This document shows positions 4,267-29,059 of a stretch of 34,194 nucleotides of DNA, in pieces. Position 1 is the stretch's first letter, and every line of letters begins with the position of its first letter. Position numbers and translations under genes: made by a program. The stretch comes from Verrucomicrobiota bacterium (lineage in GTDB: Bacteria > Verrucomicrobiota > Verrucomicrobiia > Opitutales > Opitutaceae). The stretch is from contig JAQGON010000109.1 of assembly GCA_028293565.1 (NCBI GenBank), positions 1-34,194 on the forward strand, written 5' to 3'. Below the pieces are notes generated by a model. It was not told the DNA's origin, did not search any database, and saw only the letters and a list, made by a program, of their open reading frames with translations.

Positions 4267-4333
4267 GAACGAAGTAGGCGGCGTGGTGGGAAGCGCAAAC
4301 AGAAAGTCAGGTTGCGCGGGCGCGGCCGTCCGT

Positions 4334-4338
4334 GGAGG
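4334..4338 (+). promoter_or_regulatory. Ribosome binding site deciding the menC start
   Basis: GGAGG at 4334-4338 lies 8 bases before GTG 4347. It would be inside the coding region if the upstream in-frame GTG at 4332 were used, so it favours 4347 as the true start of menC. Confidence 0.6.
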
Positions 4339-4346
4339 ATCGCGGG

Positions 4347-5375
4347 GTGTCCTACCGCTTCGATTTCCGGCGTTACCATCTGCCGTTCCAGGCGCCCCTC
4401 CGCACCGCGCACGGTCCCTGGCGCGAGCGCGAGGGCGTGATGGTGCGGCTGACCGATGCGCAGGGAAATTCCGGCTACGGCGAGGCGGCGCCAATCCCGT
4501 GGTTCGGCACGGAGACCGTCGACGAGGCGGAGTCGGTTTGCCGGGGCCTGGGAGAACACGTGACCCCGGAAACGCTGGCGTCGCTGCCCGATCGCGTCGC
4601 CTGCCTGAAAAACGCCCTGGCGGCGGCCCGGCGGGCCGACGATCCGGAACTGGCGGCGCGGAAGCCCCTCGGCGTAGCGGCGCTGCTGCCGGCGGGACGG
4701 GCGGCGCTCGGGAAAATCGGCGCGAAGGCCGACGCGGGATTTCGGATTTTCAAATGGAAAGTGGGCGTGGGCGATGCGGACGAGGAACTCGGCCTGCTGG
4801 ACGACGTCTGCGCGACGCTTCCCGACGGCGCGAAGCTGCGGCTCGACGCGAACGGAGCATGGGACCGCCGCCAGGCGGAGCGCTGGCTGGAGCGCTGCGC
4901 GGACCGGCCGGTGGAATTCGTCGAGCAGCCGTCCTTCGCCAAGGCGTCGGAAGGCGCGTCCGCCCGCCGAAGGACGGATGACCTGCTGCTCGGCCTCGCC
5001 GGGGATTTTCCCACGCCGCTGGCGCTCGACGAGTCGATCGCGAACGATCAAGACGTGGAGCGGTGGCTGGGCTTGGGCTGGCCGGGGGTTTTTGTGGTGA
5101 AGCCGGCGCTCCTCGCCGACGTGGAGGTCGCGGTGGCGCGGCTGTCGGCGGCGCGGGCCGACGTGGTTTTTTCCTCGGCGCTCGAGACGCTCGTCGGCGC
5201 GCGCGCGGCGCTGGCGGCGGCTTTCACCTGGACCGGGAAACCGCGGGCGCTGGGGTTCGGGGTGTGGCCGCTGTTCGCGGACTCGCGATTCGACGGACCC
5301 TACGAACGGCCCTTTCTTTCCGGCGAGGACGTGGCGCGACTGAACCCCGAGACCGCATGGACCGCGCTGAACTGA
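4347..5375 (+). CDS. menC: o-Succinylbenzoate synthase, with an in-frame palindromic insertion
   Basis: 342 residues from GTG 4347. It belongs to the enolase superfamily and dehydrates SHCHC to o-succinylbenzoate in menaquinone synthesis. The N-terminal capping domain ([19 protein letters not shown]) is followed by the barrel with the K-x-K pair FKWKVG (Lys136/Lys138), metal ligands LDANGAW (Asp167), VEQP (Glu193) and LALDES (Asp228), and the second catalytic Lys in VVKPAL (Lys252). Between EQP and the next helix sits [15 protein letters not shown] (196-210). This stretch has no counterpart in the family as I know it; removing it restores the expected spacing, and its DNA is a palindromic element. 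The gene overlaps menE by 19 bp, suggesting coupled translation. Confidence 0.9.
4929..4977. repeat. Palindromic element inserted in frame in menC
   Basis: Perfect 10-bp inverted ends, ccgtccttcg (4929-4938) and cgaaggacgg (4968-4977), enclose a short GC-rich centre containing a second inverted-looking motif (aaggcgtcggaaggc). It is translated as [15 protein letters not shown]. The type recalls short palindromic elements that insert into reading frames, such as the Rickettsia palindromic elements. The 'SFAKASEG' peptide is one I associate with similar dispersed repeats in other bacteria, from memory and not searched. Confidence 0.72.
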
Positions 5376-6526
5376 AAACGCTGTTGCGCGCCACGGGCTG
5401 CGTTGAGGAGCGGAACGGCATCTTTTTTCTGTGCGATCCCCGGTGGGGTCCGCCTGATCGCGCGGCGATGTCGGCGCTGGAGAATGTGGCGCTGGCCGAC
5501 CTCCGAGGGGATCGCGAGACCGGATGGCTCTGCATCCCGACCGGCGGCACGGGCGGCGGCGTGCGTTTCGCGCGTCACGATGAAAAGACCCTCGGGGCGG
5601 CGGTGCGCGGGTTCTGCGCACACTTTGGAATGGCGCGCGTGAATGCGCTGGATGTGCTGCCGGCGTTTCACGTCAGCGGACTGATGGCGCGCGTGCGTTG
5701 CGCGGCCACCGGCGGCCAGCACGTGGCGTGGCCGTGGAAAGACCTCGAAGCCGGGCGCTGGCCGGCGGCGCGGGCCGACGAAATGGTTTTGTCGCTGGTG
5801 CCCACGCAGCTGCAGCGGTTGCTCGAGTCGCCGGAGGCGGTCGAACGGCTGCGCGGGTTTCGAATCATTTTTGTCGGCGGCGGGCCGATCTGGCCCGGGC
5901 TGGCGGACCGGGCCGCCGCGGCAGGGCTGCGGCTTTCCCCCAGCTACGGCATGACGGAGACGGCGGCGATGGTGGCGGCGCTGCGGCCCGAGGAGTTTCT
6001 GGCCGGAGACCGGACCAGCGGCGCGTCGCTGCCGCATGCGCAAATCTCGATTTCGAACGAAGGCTTGATTCGGGTCGGCGGTGAGTCCCTGTTCCGGGGC
6101 TATTTTCCGGACTGCGCCCAGACCCGGGAATTTCAGACGGAGGATCTGGGCGAGTTTGACGCGAAGGGCCATCTCCGGATCCTGGGGCGGCGCGACGCGG
6201 TGATCATCACGGGCGGGAAAAAAGTGCATCCGTCCGAGGTCGAGGCGGTGTTGCGGGCCTCAGGATCGTTCGCCGACGTGGCGGTCATCGGGCTGTCGGA
6301 CCACGAGTGGGGCGAGATCGTCGTGGCGTGTTTTGTCGCGGTGAACGAGCAGGCGATGACGCGCGAAAAACTGGAATTGATTCACCGCGACCTGGCGCCG
6401 CATCAGCGGCCCAAGCGTTATCTGCCGGTCGCGGAAAAGGACTGGCCGCGCAACGCGCAGGGAAAACTGAACCGAGCGACGCTGCGCAGGCTGGCGATGC
6501 GGGCGCCGGGATCGTCCGCGACGTGA
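5357..6526 (+). CDS. menE: o-Succinylbenzoate-CoA ligase-like acyl-adenylate enzyme (MenE)
   Basis: 389 residues, short for the ANL superfamily, where MenE is usually 450-490; the early N-terminal subdomain is reduced. Visible motifs are the phosphate loop PTGGTGGG (61-68), the adenylate-binding SYGMTETAA, the hinge region LGRRDAVIITGGKKVHPSEVE (cut here into its parts: LGRRD, then GGKKVHP) and the C-terminal catalytic lysine in AQGKLNR (Lys370). The enzyme would activate o-succinylbenzoate with ATP and load CoA. The start at 5357 overlaps the menC end by 19 bp, and the pairing with menC gives the substrate assignment. On sequence alone it could be another short AMP-ligase. The stop is 9 bp from the end of the convergent thioesterase gene. 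Confidence 0.85.
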   Translation: MDRAELKTLLRATGCVEERNGIFFLCDPRWGPPDRAAMSALENVALADLRGDRETGWLCIPTGGTGGGVRFARHDEKTLGAAVRGFCAHFGMARVNALDVLPAFHVSGLMARVRCAATGGQHVAWPWKDLEAGRWPAARADEMVLSLVPTQLQRLLESPEAVERLRGFRIIFVGGGPIWPGLADRAAAAGLRLSPSYGMTETAAMVAALRPEEFLAGDRTSGASLPHAQISISNEGLIRVGGESLFRGYFPDCAQTREFQTEDLGEFDAKGHLRILGRRDAVIITGGKKVHPSEVEAVLRASGSFADVAVIGLSDHEWGEIVVACFVAVNEQAMTREKLELIHRDLAPHQRPKRYLPVAEKDWPRNAQGKLNRATLRRLAMRAPGSSAT

Positions 6527-6535
6527 GAAATGGAA

Positions 6536-6943
6536 TCAACCGGCGTTCACCCAGGCGGCGAGCCCGGCGGGAAGCGGCTGACGGGTGCGTTTGGCGAGCG
6601 AAGTCGCGACGTGCTCGGTCCGGACCCGGGCCGCCGGCTTGTCGGGAGGACCCACCTTCGTGATTTCGAAATCGATCGCGAACGAGGCGGTCGTCAGCGC
6701 CGAAGGCCGCACGGAAACCCGCACGCGGTCTCCGACCGAGAGCGGACGCAGGTACTCCGCCTCGCTTTTGGCGATGGGGACGATCAGGTCGGCGCCTCCG
6801 AAAAACCCTTTCAAATCGAGGCCGGCGCGCGCGAGGGATTCCTCGTAGGCTTCGTGGCAGAGGATGAGCGTCCGCGCAAAAAAAACGACGCCGGCGGCGT
6901 CGGTGTCGGCGAGACGAATCGTGCGGAGGTATTCGAAGGGCAT
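6536..6943 (-). CDS. Hotdog thioesterase, probably 1,4-dihydroxy-2-naphthoyl-CoA hydrolase
   Basis: 135 residues from MPFEYL, a normal length for the 4-hydroxybenzoyl-CoA thioesterase hotdog family. The N-terminal LADTDAAGVVFFARTL followed by CHEAYEESL holds the catalytic Asp of this family and resembles the cyanobacterial and plant DHNA-CoA thioesterase (Slr0204 type), which reads LADTDGAGVVYF...CHEAYE as I recall. That enzyme releases DHNA from DHNA-CoA in vitamin K synthesis, which fits the adjacent menC-menE. The gene is convergent with menE (9 bp between stops), so it is not in the same transcript. The frame is open upstream to 7012, but the family begins at 6943. The alternative is a general acyl-CoA thioesterase of the YbgC type. 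Confidence 0.78.
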   Translation of the reverse strand: MPFEYLRTIRLADTDAAGVVFFARTLILCHEAYEESLARAGLDLKGFFGGADLIVPIAKSEAEYLRPLSVGDRVRVSVRPSALTTASFAIDFEITKVGPPDKPAARVRTEHVATSLAKRTRQPLPAGLAAWVNAG

Positions 6944-7067
6944 GGGCGGGAGGCGGTGACGGGTAGGCTTTAGGCGGCGGGCGACAAGCTCCAGACTCAA
7001 TTTGCCGCGCAACGGAGGCGGCTTGCGCTTGCGAAGGAGCGCTTAAAGGCTGCCGTTGGGAAGACCC

Positions 7068-28763: not shown

Positions 28764-28880
28764 GGATAGGATGTTCTGACCGCGTCCGGGCCCGCGCCCG
28801 GACGAACATCGAACGTCCAACATTCAACTCCCAACATTGAATGCCATCGTAGCCGGGGGTGCTATCAGGACATCCTATCC
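28764..28880. repeat. Inverted-repeat element A
   Basis: Arms ggataggatgttctgac (28764-28780) and its inverted copy at 28864-28880 (15 of 17 match) enclose a stretch with the 37-bp sequence that is repeated inverted further on. A third, same-direction copy of the arm lies at 28971-28987. No gene is visible in this element. Confidence 0.65.
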
Positions 28881-29059
28881 ACTTTAGTAGCGATGCGTCT
28901 TCGACTGGCGAACGAGACGTCGGTTAGATCAGGCGCAGCTCGCGTTCCGGCCGATGGGACTTAGGACGCAGGACAGGATGCCCTGATCGCATCTGCCTTG
29001 GTTGCACCGCTCGGAATTCGACGTTGGAAGTTGAATGTTGGACGTTCGATGTTCGTCCG
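28799..29059. repeat. 37-bp inverted repeat pair with 187-bp spacer
   Basis: 28799-28835 (cggacgaacatcgaacgtcc...) and 29023-29059 are inverted copies with 36 of 37 positions matching. The right arm is followed by a run of GTCC-type tetranucleotides (ttcgtccgttcgtccg..., to about 29080). The whole gap 28747-29146 holds no protein-coding gene that I can support, only these repeats. Confidence 0.75.

Follow-up and report, generated by a model that had tools for sequence, protein, structure and literature searches.

A mobile palindrome lies within menC, the o-succinylbenzoate synthase gene, of an Opitutaceae bacterium in the Verrucomicrobiota (assembly GCA_028293565.1, contig JAQGON010000109.1; the whole stretch of 34,194 nucleotides analysed is called the window), and this palindrome is old or recurrent, smaller than 49 bp and of a kind that is spread across phyla. 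Bases 4929-4954 are very probably a slightly decayed, non-autonomous copy of a dispersed REP-like hairpin that inserted in frame in menC and was tolerated (Table 1). An earlier note on this DNA had read a 49-bp block with perfect 10-bp inverted ends (CCGTCCTTCG and CGAAGGACGG), placed between two metal-ligand strands of MenC and in frame within an open gene. This is borne out: the block follows the strand with EFVEQP and precedes that with LALDES, the gene is unbroken, and its product passes the curated NCBIfam model NF002739 (o-succinylbenzoate synthase) at 288.8 bits against a cut-off of 259. The mobile-type repeat and the peptide segment stand as described, but the unit is a 26-nt hairpin with a short tail rather than a 49-bp block, and the supposed addition of about 15 residues shrinks to 7 against the commonest short form (15 versus 8) and to about 10 when 2OZT and 3H7V, the closest enzymes of solved structure, serve as the reference. 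Four observations carry the main reading, namely homology to a dispersed family, a common register in relatives, a nested second insertion and in-frame copies in other conserved genes; against it, the genome itself has only four matches to the family model R1 described below, and the loop varies in length in any case.

Table 1. Positions of the hairpin, the inverted repeat and the enclosing gene in the window
Feature	Position	Strand	Remark
menC (o-succinylbenzoate synthase) ORF	4332..5375	+	347 codons
15-residue loop peptide	4932..4976	+	residues 197-211 counted from 4344; leads into model helix 201-221
5' arm of 10-bp inverted repeat	4929..4938	+	
3' arm of 10-bp inverted repeat	4968..4977	+	mainly native RRT-D codons; compare L262 RRKTDE, L047 RRRTDD
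26-nt REP-like hairpin, whole	4929..4954	+	CCGTCC-TTC-GCC-AA-GGC-GTC-GGAAGG; R1 match 4929-4961; best of 4 in genome
Hairpin outer 5' arm CCGTCC	4929-4934	+	
Hairpin TTC	4935-4937	+	between outer arm and inner hairpin
Inner hairpin GCC-AA-GGC	4938-4945	+	
Hairpin GTC	4946-4948	+	between inner hairpin and outer arm
Hairpin outer 3' arm GGAAGG	4949-4954	+	pairs at 5 of 6 positions with CCGTCC
Tail CGCGTCC	4955..4961	+	occupies the place of the CARG/CACG/CGCG tail in other copies

The enzyme appears intact. Residues K137, K139, D168, E194, D229 and K253, which we take to be the catalytic set of MenC, are invariant in a 26-row alignment, and the earlier statement that all catalytic residues remain holds as to this invariance. 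In an AlphaFold model (26 sequences; mean pLDDT 95.3), loop residues 201-211 start one long helix that follows the strand 190-194 and, because the loop is shorter in the solved enzymes, the inserted peptide is best described in this confident model as the extension of a helix; the insert may be neutral for the enzyme. Two neighbours of menC at 5063-7012, an AMP-binding enzyme that fits MenE and shares its strand, and a 4HBT thioesterase on the opposite strand, are those expected in a menaquinone cluster.

The palindrome by itself was rejected as evidence. Perfect inverted arms of at least 10 bp with a spacer of at most 40 occur five times in the GC-rich window against an expected 3.37 ± 1.76, and 23 of 100 dinucleotide shuffles hold at least as many, so that a 10-bp palindrome alone is no more than chance. 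Folded as RNA, the 49-bp block is somewhat more stable than shuffled versions of it, of which 3 in 200 do equally well (z = −2.46), and its most stable fold pairs the arms of the block rather than those of the 26-nt hairpin. Chance is exceeded by far, however, in the match between R1, a covariance model of a dispersed hairpin family, and the hairpin with its tail (37.1 bits, E = 9.4e-8; the second-best match in the window reaches 14.9 bits, E = 0.075). The homologous locus L262 belongs to another genus (65.6% identity outside the loop); its hairpin is followed by the 3' stretch GTCCGCCCGGAGAAAGACGGATGA without a perfect arm, where the window has GTCCGCCCGCCGAAGGACGGATGA; the 3' arm therefore consists mainly of native RR(K)T-D codons, and its perfect fit to the 5' arm may be due to chance or to templated repair between the arms. 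A search of positions 4850-5050 against Rfam 15 gave nothing at the gathering score (best match 20.1 bits against a cut-off of 70), and the same search of six sources with hairpin copies returned tRNA matches only.

R1 was built with menC left out: 71 hairpin copies were extracted from outside the gene, and the 62 distinct ones with at least five of six outer pairs were aligned. They share a 6-bp outer stem, TTC, the inner hairpin GCC-AA-GGC, TTC or TAC, the returning outer stem and a tail, which is CAGG in 19 copies, CAAG in 7, CGCG in 7, CACG in 6 and others in fewer; among 83 copies from across phyla the tails are led by CATC (15), CAGG (14) and CAAG (9). The outer stem is variable (CCCTCC/GGAGGG, CCATCC/GGATGG, CCCGCC/GGCGGG, TCCTCC/GGAGGA and others) and covaries, with a score of 0.180 against 0.060 when shuffled (reached in 0 of 500) and at most 0.045 in slid versions. 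Since copies were chosen by their core and by pairing at five or more of six positions, the invariance of that core, and some of the high pairing percentage, arise by construction. A CTAC/CTTC motif, the complement of GTAG/GAAG, sits inside the element between inner and outer stem. None of the six reading frames of the consensus 30-mer (CCCTCC...GGAGGGCAGG) contains a stop; in the TAC form one frame does.

The family is widespread. Among 200 genomes of the bacterial family, 54 contain the pattern TCCTTCGCCAAGGCNTCGGAAGG with up to two mismatches and none contains the reversed pattern; the core TTCGCCAAGGCTWCGG with one mismatch was found in 10 of 12 genomes of the genus, again with no hit to the reversed control. 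R1 at E up to 0.001 has matches in 116 of the 200 genomes and 36 of 49 genera (35 candidates were scored per genome, so that high counts are lower bounds). Beyond the bacterial family, the exact 23-mer TCCTTCGCCAAGGCTTCGGAGGG is present in at least 116 stretches of genome contigs from many phyla; among the matches listed are Alphaproteobacteria, Parcubacteria and other candidate phyla, Opitutaceae, Omnitrophota, Bacteroidetes and Elusimicrobia, and also isolates of Mesorhizobium, Bradyrhizobium and Plastoroseomonas, in which mobility could therefore be tested in culture.

Within its own genome (4.16 Mb, 99.58% complete, 4% contamination) the menC copy scores best of four R1 matches; in the remaining three the stem reads CCATCC/GGATGG and the inner hairpin differs as well. 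A near-exact second copy of the block was sought there and not found: a 17-mer with three mismatches matched 59 times against 53 for its reversed control, and a 22-mer with three mismatches had one other match. Two candidates were set aside, one on contig C50 that covers query bases 66-89 and touches the palindrome only at its last bases, and one (C148:82) with the core present and the stem absent (L233, 4 of 6 pairs). Counts in the 12 genomes of the genus (E up to 0.1; 150 candidates scored per genome) were 62 in G009, 33 in G011, 31 in G010, 30 in G005, 24 each in G003 and G002, 8 each in G004, G007 and G008, 4 in the own genome (G000) and 1 each in G001 and G006. Copies with the CCATCC/GGATGG stem abut the 3' ends of tRNA genes, in the own genome too (L386, G000:C112, 1001-1034; L388, G000:C52, 1001-1037) and further in L214 (G009:C8, 998-1023), L226 and L229; the tRNA end is perhaps a preferred site, or the hairpin perhaps a tRNA trailer.

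MenC was matched in 187 of the 200 genomes of the bacterial family, and 126 menC loci were collected (30, the window included, plus 16 and 80, with genome G220 twice). The loop could be read in 124 of these: L329 and L341, short by eye, were left out, and L273 was set to 15 residues by hand. Seventy-one loops are short (57 of 8 residues, 13 of 5 and one of 7), and 53, including that in the window, are long at the same codon (41 of 15 residues, L273 included, and 12 of 11 or of 16-25); among the 12 genus rows, 8 are long and 4 short. At E < 0.01, R1 finds 21 matches in the menC loci, of which 18 fall in the loop, all of them in long loops (18 of 53, against 0 of 71 short ones) and 17 beginning at the same codon, the remaining one being a nested copy. 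The other three mark a further family copy near menC but outside the gene in three congeners (L039, 1343-1375, equivalent to G003:C29:32544-32576; L040, 1343-1375; L036, 1080-1112). Loop hairpins differ among relatives in family fashion, as in L263 (CCCTGC-TTC-GCCAAGGC-TTC-GCAGGG), L276 (CCCGCC-TTC-GCCAAGCC-TAC-GGCGGG), L267 (CCTGCC...GGCAGG) and L268, which has a longer inner stem. The earlier note had proposed two checks, and had named as evidence against itself relatives that share the residues without the palindrome, and a genome without further copies; both turned out half true. Alignment shows a short loop in 71 of 124 sequences, and also relatives that share the loop without a perfect palindrome; the search for copies yields nothing near-exact in this genome, but it does yield three weaker ones, and a congener has as many as 62.

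Against the main reading, 35 of the 53 long loops lack an R1 match at E < 0.01. Over the 41 loops of 15 residues the outer arms pair at 4.51 of 6 positions within a sequence against 4.01 across sequences (0 of 10,000 shuffles), while the short-loop control gives 2.58 against 2.75; in the 28 of them without an R1 match, this register again gives the best pairing, 3.93 of 6 where other offsets reach 1.3 to 3.2, as would be expected of decayed copies. Genomes with a hairpin in the loop carry a median of 20 copies elsewhere (n = 18), those with a long loop and no match 8.5 (n = 34) and those with a short loop 0 (n = 71), the own menC copy being subtracted and G006, which lies outside the 200 genomes, left out. 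A quick tree made with the loop left out, in which 41 of 121 inner branches are open, requires at least 16 changes of the long state against a shuffled mean of 40.3, and well-supported branches force only four. We caution that the copy-number, pairing and tree tests are not free of kinship because all rows come from one bacterial family.

Traces of movement are visible at this site and elsewhere. Two loci of genus g65, L294 and L315, have 30 nt more than their relatives at the same place, inside the older hairpin; in L294 these 30 nt (TCCGCCTTCGCCAAGGCTATGGCGGACAAG) make up a second element in full, CAAG tail included (R1 E = 4.9e-8), and in L315 they have diverged and are missed by R1 at any E up to 1. 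L334 and L351 are 96.7% identical over 1,002 positions outside the loop, yet one of the two has a 15-residue hairpin loop and the other a 5-residue loop with different neighbours, which is local replacement and not clean excision. In genome G014 a few copies (L412, L413 and L415; also L423 and L424) are lodged in the loop of another hairpin, in some cases one of GTAG type, and 3 of 23 copies there lie within stems of at least 7, compared with 0.8% of cross-pairings; among the other 71 copies the figure is 1 of 71 (L066) against 0.9%, not beyond chance, and insertion into palindromes as a general rule was accordingly rejected, being above chance in G014 only.

Copies also occur in other conserved genes. 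Twenty open reading frames were chosen from the 62 copies for reaching far on both sides of the hairpin, so they are not a random sample, and 15 have Pfam matches. The hairpin falls inside the match in eight (LytB, HI0933, FixG 4Fe-4S, GGT, CobW, OB_NTP_bind, FtsJ and TatD) and between two domains in four (MetH, E2, PUA-methyltransferase and MutL). Placement here refers to the position of the hairpin relative to the match as a whole rather than residue by residue, and for FtsJ (L217) the lengths of the match are such that additional residues would not fit.

An alternative interpretation would make the loop a variable surface segment native to MenC, with GC-rich codons for SFAKASEG that resemble the repeat by accident and a palindrome that is likewise coincidental. 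The loop does range from 5 to 25 residues, 10-bp inverted repeats are not rare in the window, and long loops with hardly any hairpin exist (L055, L272 and L324), but we consider this highly improbable: coincidence fits poorly with an E of 9.4e-8 from a model made of copies elsewhere only, with reversed-pattern controls that are empty in 200 genomes and with arms that differ between sequences yet stay self-complementary in the same register, and the second family member nested in L294, together with the covariation of the stem, largely refutes it. That the hairpin is retained as a regulatory RNA structure in the menC mRNA, acting for example on pausing or stability, is improbable as well. Stems that stay complementary through two-sided changes (L263, L267, L276 and L268) and folds better than shuffles in the window and L268 would suit such a role, yet 71 of 124 sequences have a short loop and do without a hairpin, three of four relatives tested fold no better than shuffles, the same family occurs in unrelated genes and beside tRNA genes, and the stems vary just as dispersed members vary. 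We likewise give little credence to the whole 49-bp block as one mobile unit, perhaps a REP dimer in opposite orientation with its second hairpin decayed. The perfect outer arms, the z of −2.46 and the possibility of drawing bases 4957-4976 as a hairpin CGTCC...GGACG all suit a dimer, and REP dimers within genes are reported for Opitutus terrae (PMC3733652); against this, the own genome has no other 49-bp copy, R1 finds no second hairpin in the block, and in L262 an almost identical 3' stretch occurs although perfect arms are absent, consistent with native RRT-D codons.

A closer question concerns a variant of the main reading, in which a single ancestral insertion was followed by many later losses, as against repeated insertion at a hot spot; we put the single event at not quite an even chance. 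A common codon register (17 of 18 matches), a length of exactly 15 residues in 41 of 53 long loops and decayed hairpins in loops that the model misses speak for it, whereas the minimum of 16 changes on the tree (tempered by the four that are forced), the different family stem variants within one supported clade (L263, L266, L267, L276 and L289) and the local replacement between L334 and L351 speak against it.

Under the favoured reading of a dispersed, tolerated hairpin, the element would measure about 30 nt and comprise a variable 6-bp outer stem, a TTC/TWC internal loop, a GCC-NN-GGC inner hairpin and a 3' tail that is often CARG. It would have entered menC in frame right behind the EQ codons, the site having been struck either once, early in the bacterial family, with frequent later loss or rewriting, or repeatedly, and the coded peptide would be tolerated as an extension of the helix that follows barrel strand four. 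As is the case for REPs and IS200/IS605, a transposase acting in trans would move the element, perhaps as single-stranded DNA. A bolder version, which we regard as possible but doubtful, is that a 30-nt hairpin open in six frames crosses phyla as single-stranded DNA and recolonizes one menC codon, supplying the loop peptide anew.

Comparison with known systems was made against literature on the known kinds of such elements (PMC3733652, PMC2229807 and PMC6006769). Protein-coding palindromes are chiefly described there from Rickettsia and Wolbachia, with intragenic REPs in some free-living bacteria. The palindromic elements of Rickettsia measure 105-146 bp, and a gmk product that contains one keeps its enzyme activity, according to PMC2229807. 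The menC hairpin is like them in being palindromic, mobile-type DNA that lies in frame in conserved genes, leaves the gene open and is tolerated as extra peptide, but it is unlike them in its length of about 30 nt, its architecture and its occurrence in many phyla rather than in Rickettsia. The likeness to Rickettsia drawn in the earlier note therefore survives in so far as an in-frame palindrome codes a peptide, but the case is not private to this genome, since the long loop occurs in 53 of the 124 sequences compared within the bacterial family.

With the GTAG/CGTC REPs the family shares small, dispersed stem-loops that also lie within genes, but its free end is mostly CARG (26 of 62; CYTG on the other strand) rather than an unpaired GTAG or CGTC, and its outer stem encloses a TTC/TWC internal loop; it would thus stand apart from those families, to judge by their descriptions. 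Di Nocera 2013 (PMC3733652) reports that GTAG repeats within genes are most numerous in Opitutus terrae and that both uvrA genes of that species contain a double REP insertion, and the uvrA frames of G014, one of 1,040 codons and one of double length with 2,007 codons (G014:C1:3465854-3471709), carry GTAG and GTGG hairpins and fit that description. R1 has no match to these uvrA hairpins at E up to 1 and 26 matches elsewhere in G014 at E up to 0.01; the menC family therefore differs from the uvrA repeats.

As an imperfect palindrome of 20-40 nt with many dispersed copies, here a 26-nt hairpin with a covarying stem, the element is a REP in form. REPs usually exceed 100 copies per genome, according to the abstract of PMC2817692, whereas at most 62 were found in the genus, although R1 may miss diverged copies. 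A hairpin with a short unpaired end recalls the REPs of TnpA-REP (RAYT) systems and IS200/IS605, and copies in hairpin loops, as in G014, are what the single-strand targets of IS200/IS605 would predict. Unlike in RAYT systems, no Y1 transposase gene of the genus adjoins a copy: none of 19 Y1 (PF01797) loci has a hairpin in the examined flanks (about 1.5 kb or less on each side), and a REPtron arrangement was not found. Searches of the literature by motif, peptide or kind of element, with figures and subscription journals outside their scope, returned no description of this hairpin family.

Because one site shows empty, clear, nested and decayed states over 124 sequences, whether inserted peptides are tolerated, rewritten or lost is traceable here, and their fates can be followed directly at one site of one enzyme in one bacterial family. 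The window holds other repeats as well. A direct repeat at 2214-2694 consists of two 235-nt copies that are 91% alike and contain inverted repeats of about 45 nt, and an inverted repeat at 28799-29059 has 47-nt arms, 91% complementary and 167 nt apart. A further inverted repeat at 435-519 (ATTTTACCACGAAG...), with 33-nt arms that are 94% complementary and 19 nt apart, is possibly another dispersed palindrome.
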